Source: Marivirga atlantica
GTDB lineage: Bacteria > Bacteroidota > Bacteroidia > Cytophagales > Cyclobacteriaceae
NCBI RefSeq assembly: GCF_016734805.1
Contig: NZ_JAERQG010000003.1
Span: 1-64,000, forward strand
DNA length: 64,000 nt
Reading direction: 5' to 3'
This document shows, one piece after another, positions 53,770 to 63,783 of the stretch. The stretch's first letter is position 1. The number at the start of each line of letters is the position of its first letter. The notes below the pieces were generated by a model that saw only the letters and a program-made list of their open reading frames with translations, was not told the origin of the DNA and made no database searches. A program made the translations under genes and the position numbers.

Positions 53770-55140
53770 ATGAAAAATCCCGTTTCAGACACAATTGTTG
53801 CCCTTTCTACTGCGCCAGGCGTTGGTGCTATAGCCGTCATCAGACTTTCAGGAGATGATGCTATTAATTTGGTTAATTCCGTTTTCCATGGAAAAAACCT
53901 ACTATCGCAACAAAGTCATACAGCGCATTTTGGTACAATTAGAGATGGCTCTAAAATTTTAGATGAAGTATTGGCTACCGTATTTATAGCTCCTCACTCC
54001 TTTACTAAAGAAAATGTTGTGGAAGTAAGCTGCCACGGTTCACCATTTATAGTACAACAGCTGATTAAACTTTTTTTAAGAAGAGGTGCTCGCCTGGCCA
54101 AAGCAGGAGAATTTACACAGCGTGCCTTCCTGAATGGGAAATTTGATTTAGCACAAGCCGAAGCAGTTGCCGACTTAATTAATGCCGATACAGAAGCCGC
54201 CCATAAAGCAGCTATGAACCAGATGCGAGGCGGTTTCTCAGAGCAAATTAAACAGCTAAGACAAGAACTTATTCATTTCGCTTCTATGATTGAGCTGGAG
54301 CTGGATTTTGGTGAGGAAGATGTTGAGTTTGCTGATAGAAGTGACCTGAAGAATTTAGTTGACAAACTATTATCCGTCATAAAAATATTGGCCAATAGTT
54401 TTGATTTGGGTAATGTGATTAAAAATGGTGTGCCTACCGTAATAGCTGGAAAGCCTAATGCCGGTAAATCTACTCTATTAAATGCCTTACTGAATGAGGA
54501 AAAAGCCATTGTATCCGATGTAGCAGGCACAACGCGCGACTTTATTGAAGATGAGATTAATCTTGAAGGCGTAGTTTTCAGATTTATTGATACCGCAGGT
54601 TTACGTGATACTGAAGATAAAGTAGAAGCAATTGGCGTGGAGCGTACCAGGGAAAAGATGAAACAAGCCTCACTCATCATTTATATGTTCGATTTGAAGA
54701 ATGACAATATTGTTGAGGTTAACAGAGAAATCAATATGCTCGAGAACCTTGGCATTCCATTCATCAAGGTAGGCAATAAAGTGGATGAGGTACAAGCTGA
54801 GCTTTATGAAGCCATGAAAAAGGATGATACTACCCTATTTATTTCAGCTGTTAATAAAGAAAACCTTGAGCTACTTAAAGAGAAGCTGGTAGAAACTGTA
54901 AATCTTGACAACTTCAAAACAGGTGATACAGTTGTAACCAACATAAGACATTACGACAACCTGATACAAACGCAAAATGCGTTACAAGCGGTAATGGAAG
55001 GACTCAATAGCGATGTTACCGGAGACTTCCTAGCAATGGACATCAGACAAGCTTTACATTACCTGGGTGAGATTACTGGTGAGATCACTACAGATGACCT
55101 TTTAGCCAATATCTTTAGTAAGTTTTGTATCGGAAAGTAA
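53770..55140 (+). CDS. mnmE: tRNA modification GTPase MnmE
   Basis: MnmE, with MnmG, makes the 5-carboxymethylaminomethyl modification on U34 of several tRNAs. The 456-residue length is normal. The N-terminal folate-binding domain (1-120) begins DTIVALSTAPGVGAIAVIRLSG. The G domain shows GKPNAGKSTLLNALL (P-loop), DTAGLRDTEDKVEAIGVERT and GNKVDE. The C-terminal helix ends in the invariant FCIGK, with the catalytic Cys. The last 18 bp coincide with the position used as attachment site by some integrative elements, and mobile genes begin right after. Confidence 0.97.
   Translation: MKNPVSDTIVALSTAPGVGAIAVIRLSGDDAINLVNSVFHGKNLLSQQSHTAHFGTIRDGSKILDEVLATVFIAPHSFTKENVVEVSCHGSPFIVQQLIKLFLRRGARLAKAGEFTQRAFLNGKFDLAQAEAVADLINADTEAAHKAAMNQMRGGFSEQIKQLRQELIHFASMIELELDFGEEDVEFADRSDLKNLVDKLLSVIKILANSFDLGNVIKNGVPTVIAGKPNAGKSTLLNALLNEEKAIVSDVAGTTRDFIEDEINLEGVVFRFIDTAGLRDTEDKVEAIGVERTREKMKQASLIIYMFDLKNDNIVEVNREINMLENLGIPFIKVGNKVDEVQAELYEAMKKDDTTLFISAVNKENLELLKEKLVETVNLDNFKTGDTVVTNIRHYDNLIQTQNALQAVMEGLNSDVTGDFLAMDIRQALHYLGEITGEITTDDLLANIFSKFCIGK
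55123..55140 (+). other. Candidate attachment site (attL) in the last codons of mnmE
   Basis: TTTTGTATCGGAAAGTAA encodes FCIGK-stop. The homologous 18 bp (TTCTGTATTGGTAAGTAA in enterobacteria) is the attB core of SGI1-type islands. A tyrosine recombinase gene lies 0.6 kb downstream and all following genes are accessory. The matching attR copy would lie beyond the window. Confidence 0.55.
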
Positions 55141-55209
55141 TTACTTTTCGAATAGTACGCTAAACCCTTCTTTTACTTGCTATTAGACTGTTTTTACTTC
55201 CTTTACTTG

Positions 55210-55240
55210 TTGCTAATTTTCCTATTTTTTCCTATCTTTC
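55210..55240 (+). promoter_or_regulatory. Probable promoter of the recombinase operon
   Basis: TTG (55210-55212), a 20-nt spacer and TATCTTTC (55233-55240), which matches TAnnTTTG at all but the last base. It is about 140 nt before the first element gene and inside the arms of a 9-bp inverted repeat (TGTTGCTAA 55208-55216, TTAGCAACA 55277-55285). Confidence 0.4.
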
Positions 55241-55311
55241 GTTTCTAATTTGTTGCTGAACAATCAATATTTGTTGTTAGCAACAGATTTTTAAGATAGA
55301 GGCGAGATAAT

Positions 55312-55357
55312 GTTACATACAGATACATCCTGATACAAAGGGATACACTCTGATACA
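55312..55357 (+). repeat. Phased GATACA hexamers, 10-bp period
   Basis: GATACA occurs at 55322, 55332, 55342 and 55352, and a one-mismatch copy GTTACA at 55312, each exactly 10 bp apart. All copies therefore face the same side of the helix. The array ends 25 bp before the first start codon of the element. Confidence 0.85.
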
Positions 55358-55382: not shown

Positions 55383-55736
55383 ATGAGCAGCAACATTCGA
55401 GTTCCCAAAATCTGTCAGCATTGCGGTACTGAGTTTATCGCCAAGACTACTGTGACCAAATTTTGTGGTGATAACTGTGCCAAGCGTGCCTACAAGAAAC
55501 GCAAGAGAGATCAGAAGGTACAGGAGATTGCCCCTACTGCGGTACAGAAACAGGAATACAATCAGGAACAAGTCAAAGACAAAGACTTTCTAAGTATTGC
55601 CGAAACCTGCAAACTACTTGGAGCAAGTAGAATGACTCTGTACCGTCAGATCAAGAACGGAAAAATTCAAGCTGCGAAAATTGGTAGCCGTACCATCATT
55701 AAGAGAGAAGAAATCGAAAAACTGTTTCAGGCATGA
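55383..55736 (+). CDS. Zn-ribbon + helix-turn-helix protein (excisionase-like)
   Basis: A 117-residue basic DNA-binding protein. The N-terminal segment has two Cys pairs (CQHCG near residue 11 and FCGDNC near 29) that suggest a zinc ribbon. The C-terminal half is a MerR/excisionase-type HTH ([47 protein letters not shown]). It is the first gene of the element and overlaps the recombinase gene by 4 bp, so it probably controls recombinase direction or expression. The phased GATACA array just upstream is its most obvious candidate binding site. Confidence 0.85.
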
Positions 55737-56827
55737 AAGTAACACTAAGAAAACGCAATCAAGGTGGCAAGACCAGTCTATACCTAGACTACTACCACAA
55801 AGGGAAAAGGAAAACCGAATACCTCAAATTATACCTTTCTCCCAATGCAAAGACCAAAGAGGAAAAGGAAGTCAACAAAAAGACCCTTCAATTAGCTGAG
55901 ACTATCAGAGCACAGCGACAAATCGAAATCCAAAACGGTGTTTATGGATTCAGAGATAATGAGAAATTGAAAGGCAGCTTCCTTGCATACATTGAGCTAC
56001 TGGCTAACCAGAGACAAGACAGTCCTGGCAATTACGGCAATTGGACAAGTATGCTGAAACATCTAAAGGCTTTCTGTTCCTATGAGGTTTCCTTCTCAGA
56101 TATTGACCGACAGTTTATTCAGGATTTCAAATACTACCTTGATAAGAAGGCTATTGCACATGGTGACCAGAAACTATCTCAAAATTCTAAGTACTCCTAC
56201 TTTAACAAGCTGCGAGCAGCTTTAAAGCAAGCAGTGAAAGACGGTATTCTACCTACCAACCCAAGTGAAGGGGTTGACGCCTTTAAACAAGGTGAACCTG
56301 AAAGAGAATTTCTGACTTTGGAGGAACTGCAAGCAGCAGCCAATACGGAATGTGAAATACCTCAGATGAAAACGGCATTCATATTTTCATGCCTTACAGG
56401 TCTGAGGTGGTCAGATATTAATAAGCTACTCTGGTCAGAGGTGCAGCACTCAAATGATAACGGGTATTACATCCGATTCAGACAAAAGAAAACCAAGGGA
56501 GCAGAAACCCTCCCTATTTCAGAACAAGCCTTTGGCTTGCTCGGTGAAAGGCAAGCTCCAGAAGAGCGAGTATTCAAAGGATTGAAATACTCTGCATGGC
56601 ATAACCTGAAATTGCAACAATGGATGATGAAAGCTGGTATCTCCAAAACCATCACTTTCCATTGTGCCCGTCATACCTATGCCACTTTGCAGCTTACGGC
56701 AGGAACTGATATTTACACAGTCTCAAAGCTCTTAGGCCATAAGGAATTGAAGACCACCCAAGTCTATGCCAAAATCATAGATGAAAAGAAACAGGAAGCA
56801 GCCAACAAAATCAAACTTGACCTATGA
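55733..56827 (+). CDS. Tyrosine recombinase / integrase
   Basis: A 364-residue phage-type integrase of the Bacteroidota kind. It has an arm-binding N-terminal domain ([30 protein letters not shown]), a SAM-like core-binding domain (about 85-185) and a catalytic domain. The catalytic residues are visible as Arg in [11 protein letters not shown], His-x-x-Arg in [11 protein letters not shown], His in [11 protein letters not shown] and Tyr in VYAKI. It would catalyse integration and excision of the element at the mnmE site. It overlaps both neighbours by 4 bp (ATGA), so it is translationally coupled to them. Confidence 0.95.
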
Positions 56828-58071: not shown

Positions 58072-58371
58072 ATGGACGAAATAATTGAACGTCTTGAAAA
58101 TCTCCAACGCCTAATTGAGAGCCAGGGGATTTACACGAAAGAAGTTTTAAACTTCAATGAGGCTTGCCAGTACTTGGAGCTTTCACAGTCACACTTATAC
58201 AAGTTGACAAGTGGAGGTAATATTCCACACTACAAGCCAAACGGAAAGAAGCTCTATTTCAAGAGAACGGAGTTAGAAAGCTGGTTGCTTCGCAACCGCA
58301 ATTCTACTCAGGAAGAAATAGACCGCAGAGCTGCGGATTACCTAATCAAAAAAGGGAGGGTAAAGCTATGA
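58072..58371 (+). CDS. Small helix-turn-helix protein (excisionase family)
   Basis: A 99-residue DNA-binding protein. A short N-terminal coiled segment (DEIIERLENLQRLIE) precedes an HTH_17-type domain (LNFNEACQYLELSQSHLYKLTSGGNIPHYKPNGKKLYFKRTELESWLL). Such proteins in Bacteroidota elements act as excisionases or regulators. It is the first gene of a tightly packed operon with a 4-bp overlap to the next gene. Confidence 0.88.
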   Translation: MDEIIERLENLQRLIESQGIYTKEVLNFNEACQYLELSQSHLYKLTSGGNIPHYKPNGKKLYFKRTELESWLLRNRNSTQEEIDRRAADYLIKKGRVKL

Positions 58372-58664
58372 CAGAGGTTTTCGATATGCTCTTGACAGTA
58401 GCTCAAGACATAAAAACAATCAAAGCATACCTCCTCAATTTCCATAAGTCACGATTGGAGCAATTCAGTGACGAATGGATTGATGGTCAGGTAGTGATGC
58501 AAACGCTGCACATTAGCAAAAGAACCCTTCAATCCCTTCGGGATAGTGGGGTTCTTCCCTACAGCCGAATCAATGGCAAGTTCTATTACAAAGTTTCTGA
58601 TATGGAAGCTTTACTGGAATCCAACTACTCACCTTCAAAATCAAAGCATTATGGAGATCAGTAG
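58368..58664 (+). CDS. Second small helix-turn-helix protein
   Basis: A 98-residue protein with the same layout as its upstream neighbour: an N-terminal helix (FDMLLTVAQDIKTIKAYLLNFH), then an HTH_17 domain (WIDGQVVMQTLHISKRTLQSLRDSGVLPYSRINGKFYYKVSDMEALL). The two are probably distant paralogues, and paired small HTH genes are typical of Bacteroidota conjugative and mobilisable elements. It overlaps the genes on both sides (4 bp and 14 bp). Confidence 0.85.
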   Translation: MTEVFDMLLTVAQDIKTIKAYLLNFHKSRLEQFSDEWIDGQVVMQTLHISKRTLQSLRDSGVLPYSRINGKFYYKVSDMEALLESNYSPSKSKHYGDQ

Positions 58665-61691: not shown

Positions 61692-62264
61692 ATGAGAGTA
61701 AAACTCAGTGATATTGCACAACTTCAATTTGGTTTATACACCAAGCCAACCGAGAACGGCAATGCTGCCTATCTACAGGTGAAGCATTTTGATGATTGGG
61801 GCAATCAAACAGATAAGATCGATACTTTTATTCAGATTGACCAGAAGAATGAAACGCATCTTTTAGAAGAAGGTGATATTCTATTAGTGGGCAAAGGAAT
61901 GAGGAATTTTGCCTGGACGTACCATAGAAACTATGGCCCTGCAATGGCCTCTTCTATCTTCTTTGTTATCAAAGTGGACAGATCGAAAGTTATACCGGAG
62001 TTCCTCACTACCTTATTTAATATGCCCCAAACACAGTCACACTTTCAAACATTGGGAGCTGGAAGCTCTATTCCATCTATTCGTAAGTCGGAATTAGAAG
62101 CCTTTACTATCCAAATCCCCTCATTGGAACTACAAGAAAAAGCAATTGCCATAAAGCAATTACACTATAAAGAAATGGACTTGTCCCGACAGATTATTGC
62201 GGAAAAACAAAAAGTCTATCAGGCAGTCATTAAAAACTTAATTTATCAGAAGCATGAGCAATAA
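61692..62264 (+). CDS. hsdS: Single-TRD type I restriction specificity protein (half HsdS)
   Basis: A 190-residue specificity-type protein with one target-recognition domain (VKLSDIAQLQFGLYT at the start, LLEEGDILLVGKGMRNFAWTYHRN, AGSSIPSIRKSELEAFTIQIPSLELQEKAI). One coiled-coil conserved region (about 150-185) follows. Normal HsdS has about 400 residues and two such halves. A half-size protein could dimerise to read a palindromic site, or act with another partner. It leads the operon, has its own promoter, and overlaps hsdM by 11 bp. Confidence 0.85.
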   Translation: MRVKLSDIAQLQFGLYTKPTENGNAAYLQVKHFDDWGNQTDKIDTFIQIDQKNETHLLEEGDILLVGKGMRNFAWTYHRNYGPAMASSIFFVIKVDRSKVIPEFLTTLFNMPQTQSHFQTLGAGSSIPSIRKSELEAFTIQIPSLELQEKAIAIKQLHYKEMDLSRQIIAEKQKVYQAVIKNLIYQKHEQ

Positions 62265-63783
62265 ACCGATTACCCAAAGCGAAATCAACAACATTGTCTG
62301 GAAAGCCTGTGACACTTTTAGAGGTGTCATTGACCCCTCACAATACAAGGATTATATCCTGACCATGCTTTTCGTAAAGTATGTATCTGATGTATGGAAG
62401 GATAAAAAGGACTTCTATGCCAAGAAATACAATGATGATGCGGTACGAGTAGAAAGAGCACTGAGAAACGAGCGTTTTCAATTGCCAGAAACATGCACGT
62501 TTGATTACCTCTTTGAAAACCGAAATGCTGCGAATGTAGGCGAGTTAATCAATACCGCTTTGGAAAGCATGGAAGATGCCAACCGCAGCAAGTTGGAGCG
62601 AGTGTTCCGAAACATTGATTTCAACTCAGAAGCCAACCTCGGGCAAACCAAAGACCGTAACAGAAGACTCAAAAACCTTTTGGTTGATTTCTCTGCTCTG
62701 GACTTACAGCCATCGCACTTAGAGGACAATGACGTGATAGGTGATGCTTATGAGTACTTGATTGAAAAATTTGCTAGTGATGCAGGAAAGAAAGCGGGAG
62801 AATTTTACACCCCTGCTCAGGTTTCTAAGTTATTAGCCAAACTCTTAAACCCTCAACCTGGTGACAGGATCATAGACCCAACTTGTGGTTCAGGTTCTTT
62901 GCTGATCAAACTATCCAAACAAGTAGGTAGCAAGAACTTCTCACTTTACGGTCAGGAAATCAACGGAAGCACTTGGGCATTGGCTCGTATGAACATGTTC
63001 CTGCATGAGATCGATGATGCTACCATAGAATGGGGCGACACACTCAACAATCCTAAGCTGCTGGAAGATGACAGCTTGCTTAAAGGAAACATTGTAGGGG
63101 CAAATCCTCCTTTTTCATTGGATAAATGGGGAGCAGACAATGCCATATCTGACCAGTTTACCCGATTCCATAGAGGTGTACCACCCAAAAGCAAAGGTGA
63201 TTACGCTTTTATCTCTCACATGATCGAGTCTACCTACCACGATACAGGTCGTGTAGGTGTCATACTCCCTCATGGAGTGCTTTTCAGAGGAAGCAGTGAA
63301 GGCAAAATCAGGCAACAACTCATTGAAGAAAACCTACTGGAAGCGGTCATTGGTCTACCTGCCAACCTCTTCTTTGGTACAGGCATACCTGCCACGATCA
63401 TGCTGTTCAATCGTGCCAAGGGTGACAACAAAGATGTATTGTTTATAGATGCCAGCCAAGGTTACGAATCAGGCACTAACCAAAACCGCCTACGTGATAA
63501 GGACATTGACAAAATTGTCAATACGTATCGAGCCTTTCAGGAAGCCAATCCATTGACCACCGAAGAAGGCGAAGTATTGGAAGATAGGTTTGCCTACCGT
63601 GCTACTCTCAAGGAAGTGGAGGAAAACGAGTACAACCTGAATATTCCTCGCTATGTAGACACATTCGAAGAAGAAGCGGAGGTGGATATTCCCGCAACAC
63701 AAAACAATATCATCGATCTAAAAAAGGAGTTGGCAACTGTGGAAGATCAAATGGATACTTACTTAAAGATATTAGGTTATTAG
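62254..63783 (+). CDS. hsdM: Type I restriction-modification DNA methyltransferase (HsdM)
   Basis: A 509-residue N6-adenine methyltransferase. The N-terminal HsdM domain (IVWKACDTFRGVIDPSQYKDYILTMLFVKYVSDVW) is followed by AGEFYTPAQVSKLLAKLL, the SAM-binding DPTCGSGSLLIKL and the catalytic NPPFSLDKWG. It methylates the sites chosen by the specificity subunit and protects host DNA. It is translationally coupled to the single-TRD gene upstream, and the next specificity gene begins one base after its stop codon. Confidence 0.95.
   Translation: MSNKPITQSEINNIVWKACDTFRGVIDPSQYKDYILTMLFVKYVSDVWKDKKDFYAKKYNDDAVRVERALRNERFQLPETCTFDYLFENRNAANVGELINTALESMEDANRSKLERVFRNIDFNSEANLGQTKDRNRRLKNLLVDFSALDLQPSHLEDNDVIGDAYEYLIEKFASDAGKKAGEFYTPAQVSKLLAKLLNPQPGDRIIDPTCGSGSLLIKLSKQVGSKNFSLYGQEINGSTWALARMNMFLHEIDDATIEWGDTLNNPKLLEDDSLLKGNIVGANPPFSLDKWGADNAISDQFTRFHRGVPPKSKGDYAFISHMIESTYHDTGRVGVILPHGVLFRGSSEGKIRQQLIEENLLEAVIGLPANLFFGTGIPATIMLFNRAKGDNKDVLFIDASQGYESGTNQNRLRDKDIDKIVNTYRAFQEANPLTTEEGEVLEDRFAYRATLKEVEENEYNLNIPRYVDTFEEEAEVDIPATQNNIIDLKKELATVEDQMDTYLKILGY

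Follow-up and report, generated by a model that had tools for sequence, protein, structure and literature searches.

Identification of a phased hexamer array at the left end of an integrated element

The first 64,000 nucleotides of contig NZ_JAERQG010000003.1 of Marivirga atlantica (positions 1 to 64,000 of the forward strand, in the following referred to as the window) contain the left end of an element of about 42.8 kb, which is inserted at the 3' end of mnmE. At this left end an array of five hexamers precedes the gene of a 117-residue protein with a zinc ribbon and a winged helix-turn-helix (wHTH) domain, followed by the gene of a tyrosine integrase (Int). Our analysis suggests that the array is the binding site of the 117-residue protein, probably the recombination directionality factor (RDF) of the element. 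The features are listed below; the array units were read from the sequence.

55123–55140, plus strand: core of the left attachment site (attL), TTTTGTATCGGAAAGTAA, the last 18 bp of mnmE (gene 53770–55140) and integration site of the element
55312–55317, plus strand: array unit 1, GTTACA
55322–55327, plus strand: array unit 2, GATACA
55332–55337, plus strand: array unit 3, GATACA
55342–55347, plus strand: array unit 4, GATACA
55352–55357, plus strand: array unit 5, GATACA
55383–55736, plus strand: gene of the 117-residue zinc-ribbon (C11, C14, C28, C32) and wHTH protein, probable RDF/excisionase and autoregulator
55733–56827, plus strand: tyrosine integrase gene with an arm domain (Arm-DNA-bind_5), a SAM-like domain (Phage_int_SAM_5) and a catalytic domain (Phage_integrase)

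The first-pass annotation had described five hexamers at exact 10-bp steps, 25 bp in front of the first gene of an element, a zinc-ribbon/HTH gene overlapping a recombinase, and had judged the array too regular for chance. A detailed inspection confirmed this description: 25 bp separate the end of the array from the ATG at 55383, and the two open reading frames (ORFs) share 4 bp; an Int ORF downstream on the same strand is also present in most loci of the family. That the 117-residue gene is the first of the element is supported by the attL core and by a diverged core of the right attachment site (attR) at contig position 97922, beyond the window; even when up to 2 mismatches are allowed, the attL core has no second copy in the draft genome. 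The search for integrase relatives gave 73 loci, many of which carry an identical core on the left, and second cores lie 17–43 kb away in those relatives whose genomes were searched.

Within the window the single hexamer GATACA occurs at chance level (33 seen, 32.25 expected). The phased three-unit pattern gave 3 exact matches and 1 with 3 mismatches at an expectation of 0.13, and the array is the only site in the window where any hexamer recurs exactly four times at period 10; exact four-fold hexamer repeats at periods 7–9 or 11–13 are absent from the whole window. Across the draft genome (4.19 Mb) there are 3 copies of GATACA-N4-GATACA, all of them in the array, compared with 1 occurrence of the reversed control pattern. 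On these counts a chance origin was rejected. A coding repeat was also discarded as an explanation, since 10 bp is no whole number of codons and since whole units have been gained or lost in related loci, with six units in L027 and L052, five in L028 and four in L033. As such changes shift the reading frame, they speak for a DNA site.

Further sequence features surround the array:

55233–55241, plus strand: TATCTTTCG, promoter-like
55301–55308, plus strand: GGCGAGAT box, 11 bp 5' of the first hexamer, the same across hexamer classes

The box, with the consensus GGNGARAT, was found in 47 of 103 family loci compared with 1.4 expected from shuffling, and in 27 it stands at position -11 from the first hexamer. 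TATCTTTCG resembles the -7 element of Bacteroidota promoters, TAnnTTTG. The array is therefore probably situated downstream of the transcription start of the operon, in its 5' leader.

Conservation of the 10-bp period in related elements

To call an array we used a four-unit period-10 score within the 110 nt directly upstream of the gene and 200 dinucleotide shuffles per locus with a threshold of P<=0.01; near-duplicates (upstream 110 nt at least 80% or HTH region at least 97% identical) were dropped before counting. An array was called in 39 of 51 non-redundant loci of a first set and in 39 of 52 further non-redundant loci of a second set drawn from phylum and order samples, while any other period from 7 to 13 was found in 0–2 loci of either set. 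The profile of the HTH protein matched in 56 of 395 genomes of the class, one of which carries four family members, and a search of a viral collection yielded only 1 related locus.

Among the near relatives (L005–L026, L060, L064 and L075) at least the first two units are in place in 25 of 25 loci, although the later (3') units are degenerate in L012–L020 and L023–L025. A locus that keeps the HTH protein and has lost the array, the case named in the first-pass annotation as speaking against its proposal, was thus not seen among these relatives. The same annotation had proposed to look for conservation of period and hexamer, and here only the period stood: it is also retained in a flavobacterial group with the hexamer GCACCA, to which L027, L028, L033 and L052 belong, whereas the hexamer itself varies by element (GATACA, GCACCA, GCWACA, GRCACA, GAAACA, TTGACR).

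Covariation of the hexamer with the HTH protein

Two proteins of the element could recognize the array, the HTH protein and the integrase, whose Arm-DNA-bind_5 domain might use it as a row of arm-type sites like the tandem arm sites of other integrases. The integrase does possess an arm domain, the array lies within an arm of the attachment site (att), and the hexamer GCAACA of some classes reads on the opposite strand as the arm motif TGTTGC described below. We compared both candidates by partial Mantel tests on 39 loci, of which 6 lack a usable Int (n=33); L112, L135 and L136 were excluded by hand, and the first called unit was trimmed in L102, L104 and L055. Hexamer distance correlated with the recognition helix of the HTH protein when the Int arm domain was held constant (partial r 0.55, P 0.0005), compared with a partial r of 0.14 (P 0.0155) for the Int arm domain with the HTH protein held constant. 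In 30 new loci the corresponding values were 0.47 (P 0.0005) and 0.21 (P 0.063). The covariation of hexamer and HTH sequence that the first-pass annotation had named as a supporting result was therefore found in both samples.

A different motif follows the integrase:

55207–55213, plus strand: TTGTTGC, probable integrase arm-type site, as the motif class tracks the Int arm domain
55250–55256, plus strand: TTGTTGC, probable integrase arm-type site, 62 bp 5' of the array
55271–55285, no strand assigned: TTGTTG (55271) and inverted GCAACA (55280–55285), possible extra arm sites

This motif, TTGTTGC or in other elements TTGTACC, is found in the stretch that separates the core from the array, and its 142 sites keep a phase of 10.5 bp relative to the array (R 0.80). 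Its variable form TTGNNNC correlated with the Int arm domain given the HTH protein (0.61, P 0.0005), versus 0.07 (P 0.20) for the HTH protein given the Int arm domain (n=26); over all loci the values were 0.56 and -0.18 (n=49). Hence, there is a double dissociation: the HTH recognition helix goes with the hexamers and the Int arm domain with TTGTTGC/TTGTACC. The right arms agree with this distinction. After exclusion of L080, L094 and L096, which are not true attR copies, the forward form of TTGTTGC/TTGTACC was present in 15 of 17 right arms, whereas a phased array at P<=0.01 was called in just 1 of 17. The right arm of the M. atlantica element itself contains only inverted GCAACA, and in that of L081 CTTGTTGC was spotted by eye. 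Integrase arm sites were rejected as the main explanation of the hexamers on the basis of the covariation with the HTH protein together with the right arms: TTGTTGC/TTGTACC, present on either side and varying with the Int arm domain, already fits as the arm motif, and the hexamers do not show this pattern. That the array consists of arm-type sites thus seems very improbable to us.

A natural swap points in the same direction. L124 and L137, from two genomes with one genus code, encode integrases that are 98% identical over 259 aligned residues and have identical arm domains, but the hexamers of their arrays differ (TTTACR in L124, TTGACT in L137). Their HTH proteins are only 23–50% alike per 20 residues across the first 120 and at least 90% past residue 140, and at the DNA level an identity of 90.7% starts 390 nt into the HTH gene. 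Therefore, the DNA-binding domain and the array differ together within an otherwise near-identical unit. The reverse case is the window compared with L173, in which the integrases are 66% identical, the HTH proteins 85%, and both arrays are of the GATACA type.

The covariation can be assigned to single positions of the predicted recognition helix:

55629–55658, plus strand: recognition helix in the predicted model, codons 83–92; residues 83, 84 and 87 covary with hexamer bases

In the 39 loci, R84 occurs with C at base 3 (8/8 vs 0/31), W84 with C at base 2 (13/13 vs 1/26) and L, I or V at residue 83 with T at base 6 (15/15, site level). The rules of the code were fixed before new loci were fetched. 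This hold-out is one in time rather than in phylogeny. Of 52 new loci, 37 were scored after removal of 15 (13 whose score was below 14 and 2 that lacked the helix), and GCGAAA-like units at the start of an array were trimmed. The rules held for R84-C3 (9/11 vs 1/26, P 4e-6), W84-C2 (7/7 vs 0/30, P 1e-7), M84-T3 (3/3 vs 8/34, P 0.02) and L/I/V83-T6 (3/3 vs 2/34, P 0.001), with the limitation that such Fisher values, like the Mantel values, overstate independence because the sequences are related and independent pairs are few. An association of T84 with A3 (6/7 vs 8/30 in the new loci) was noticed post hoc. Mapped onto the integrase tree, residue 84 shows 19 changes, R84 8 and C3 8. Of the 362 hexamers in all 76 loci, 343 have C at base 5, and the protein carries R88 in 56 of these loci and K88 in 10. 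The prior of the array caller favours G/T at base 1, A/C at base 4, C at base 5 and A/T at base 6 and is neutral at bases 2 and 3; as a consequence, the caller itself contributes in part to what was found at bases 1, 4 and 6.

Family and predicted fold of the 117-residue protein

The protein matches HTH_17 with 50.3 bits (cut-off 27) and the excisionase family TIGR01764 with an E-value of 9e-12 and a score of 45.1 (cut-off 28.8). It also matches phrog_66 (excisionase and transcriptional regulator), a family without curated cut-off, with E 3.6e-13, and a sequence profile connects it to Xis of Pukovnik (4j2n, E 2e-5). Judged by the profile matches above cut-offs and by the shared operon with a tyrosine integrase, it belongs to an excisionase/RDF-type family.

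The predicted model (mean pLDDT 78.6, pTM 0.39) consists of a zinc-ribbon-like N-terminus and a wHTH domain with a helix at residues 83–92. Its closest structural neighbours are BldC bound to DNA (Z 8.4) and Pukovnik Xis (Z 8.2); next come RdfS, Tn916 Xis, lambda Xis and P2 Cox among others, and also many MerR proteins. VIA-align put residue 68 of the model on residue 10 of BldC, which would place residue 84 on Lys26 and residue 88 on Arg30. This register is suggested by the range ends together with a common T-x-x-R spacing.

Proposed function of the array

Taken together, we consider it likely that the array serves as an operator, phased with the DNA helix, on which the 117-residue protein assembles head to tail into an oligomer; this protein would be the RDF of the element and also regulate its own synthesis. 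The first-pass annotation had seen in the array the geometry of a small excisionase or repressor binding cooperatively, and its assignment to the adjacent HTH protein is in line with the constant period of 10, the covariation of hexamer and helix, the excisionase-family matches and a predicted wHTH fold like those of Pukovnik Xis and BldC. In the mechanism we propose, each 10-bp unit would be occupied by one protomer whose recognition helix reads the hexamer. With all units on one face of the DNA, the protomers could stack head to tail and thereby bend the left arm of att. The protein filament and the integrase, bound to core and arm sites (TTGTTGC, both arms), may then assemble the excisive complex, and such a role would make the 117-residue protein the RDF of the element. 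The same binding might repress the rdf-int operon and thus be autoregulatory, since the filament would also block the operon downstream of the promoter-like TATCTTTCG. For the filament, the bend, the assembly of the excisive complex and the autorepression we draw on the analogy with Apl, Xis and BldC.

Several observations weigh against this interpretation. The threshold of P<=0.01 is missed by 12 of 51 and 13 of 52 loci, and L129, L132, L141, L143 and L153 are without any array; conversely, Int homologues without HTH gene do not provide a clean negative control, as 3 of 6 (L067, L068 and L070) reach P<=0.02 at period 10 with T-rich TTTTTGT repeats. The small link between hexamer and Int arm persists (partial r 0.14, P 0.0145, n=63), the array class GCAACA equals the inverted arm motif, and among the right arms a P of 0.007 was obtained for that of L078, whose units are weak, and of 0.013–0.033 for three T-rich ones. 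With respect to the code, the prediction K88-T1 failed in the new loci (2/4 vs 7/33, P 0.24) and for W84+Q87-C4 a single locus carried the residue pair (1/1 vs 2/36, P 0.08). Supported branches provide only 5 independent R84/C3 pairs, of which on average 4.4 agree, 0.2 disagree and 0.5 do not differ (sign test, median P 0.125), and only 2 W84/C2 pairs, which both agree. Finally, Foldseek returned no match reaching E 0.001 for the model, and Z-scores near 8 may reflect a common arrangement.

It is conceivable that the HTH protein binds the array as a mere autoregulator and that the true RDF is encoded elsewhere, for example by the HTH_17 genes at 58072–58371 or 58368–58664. This would fit the short distance from the array to the start codon and its probable position behind the promoter; moreover, the element contains these two additional HTH_17 proteins, and the two nearest folds include a transcription regulator, BldC. 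However, the array is situated in an att arm and in 10.5-bp phase with the arm sites, the best family matches of the 117-residue protein are excisionases, and known RDFs such as Apl perform both roles according to the available text of PMC7498355. We therefore regard a purely regulatory function as unlikely, albeit less so than integrase arm sites. Least plausible of all is a function as replication iterons, leader-RNA element or host-factor site, to which the PriCT_2/DUF3987 gene of the element and the position of the array in a probable 5' leader would fit.

Other genes of the element

The two additional HTH_17 genes are small, overlap each other and stand before a BT4734-like/primase-like gene; the element carries a primase-like gene of the PriCT_2/DUF3987 type. 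The cargo comprises type I restriction-modification, efflux and P-type ATPase genes (window 62254–63783, L097:2632–5871, L097:9655–14067 and L098:4140–6197), including an RND (resistance-nodulation-division) efflux protein that is fused with an outer-membrane efflux domain in one frame of 1470 residues. A Piwi-domain protein of the cargo (L097:6583–8682, contig 70582–72681) is flanked by a gene of a type I restriction subunit R and by metal-efflux genes. The final gene before attR encodes a DUF6266 protein (L098:13101–13742), and the attR sites of relatives are preceded by similar 3' gene ends. In L005–L010, L060 and L064 the integrase is 99–100% identical in the best segment across several genera and a metagenome-assembled genome labelled Rickettsiales. 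This points to recent transfer; the Rickettsiales label is perhaps a binning error.

Comparison with known systems

The first-pass annotation knew of no described site of this form, and this point was not supported. In the available text of PMC7498355, Apl of phage 186 is described as an RDF and repressor that binds five direct repeats with a spacing of 10–11 bp at att and seven at pR-pL; binding is cooperative and bends the DNA, single sites are bound weakly and the protein spreads into non-specific DNA. The array in the window likewise consists of direct repeats one helix turn apart, inside an att site and beside the gene of a small protein, but it differs in that near-identical hexamers follow one another at exactly 10 bp, that the protein has a zinc ribbon in addition to its wHTH, and that hexamer and protein covary from element to element. 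The same source reports head-to-tail binding to tandem repeats one turn apart for the Xis proteins of lambda, Gifsy-1 and Pukovnik. The predicted wHTH fold of the window protein is like that of Pukovnik Xis (PDB 4j2n, Z 8.2) and lambda Xis (PDB 2ief and 1rh6, Z 6.1), although the matched chains lack a zinc ribbon, align over 51–58 residues of the wHTH only and differ in hexamer and host group.

For BldC, the part of PMC5859096 available to us describes a head-to-tail oligomer on direct repeats of 9 bp whose bases are read by two helix residues, Lys26 and Arg30. It is the closest fold to our model and its base-reading residues map to 84 and 88, but BldC is a developmental transcription regulator of Streptomyces with no link to an integrase, and its 9-bp direct repeat contrasts with 10 bp in the window and in the family. 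RdfS of ICEMlSym R7A is a wHTH RDF that covers about 10 bp of DNA per protomer and forms a superhelical polymer in crystals; the accessible sections of PMC11963761 report no consensus motif for it, whereas the motif of the family studied here is sharp and element-specific. SGI1-type islands also integrate at the 3' end of trmE (= mnmE), as stated in the accessible portion of PMC8409611, but unlike the element in the window they are gammaproteobacterial.

RDF sites in the form of direct repeats one turn apart are therefore already known (PMC7498355, available text), as are the matching excisionase-type families in PHROGs and NCBIfam. In the accessible open-access literature, with subscription journals mostly outside its scope, we found nothing on this Bacteroidota family or on covariation of an excisionase with its operator. 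As far as this literature shows, the zinc-ribbon Bacteroidota family as a set, the strict covarying hexamers and the cassette-like exchange are new. It is possible, although we suggest this only tentatively, that a large RDF family of Bacteroidota follows a simple recognition code, in which residues 83, 84 and 87 set the hexamer on a rigid 10-bp frame, and exchanges DNA-binding domain and array as a cassette among elements that are nearly identical elsewhere, L124 and L137 being an example. If this is true, the diversity of hexamers would prevent cross-talk among the excision switches of co-resident elements.

Sites of RDFs are hard to predict because their specificity is relaxed, as for Apl of phage 186 (PMC7498355), or their motif is unclear, as for RdfS (PMC11963761; both in the text available). 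Here, the site can be read from the sequence, its partner was found by covariation and shifts in specificity caused by single residues become predictable; the covariation of helix and hexamer would make excisionase specificity readable from sequence. RDF recognition and the insulation of such elements would thus become testable, and the array would provide a handle for annotating the att arms of Bacteroidota elements.
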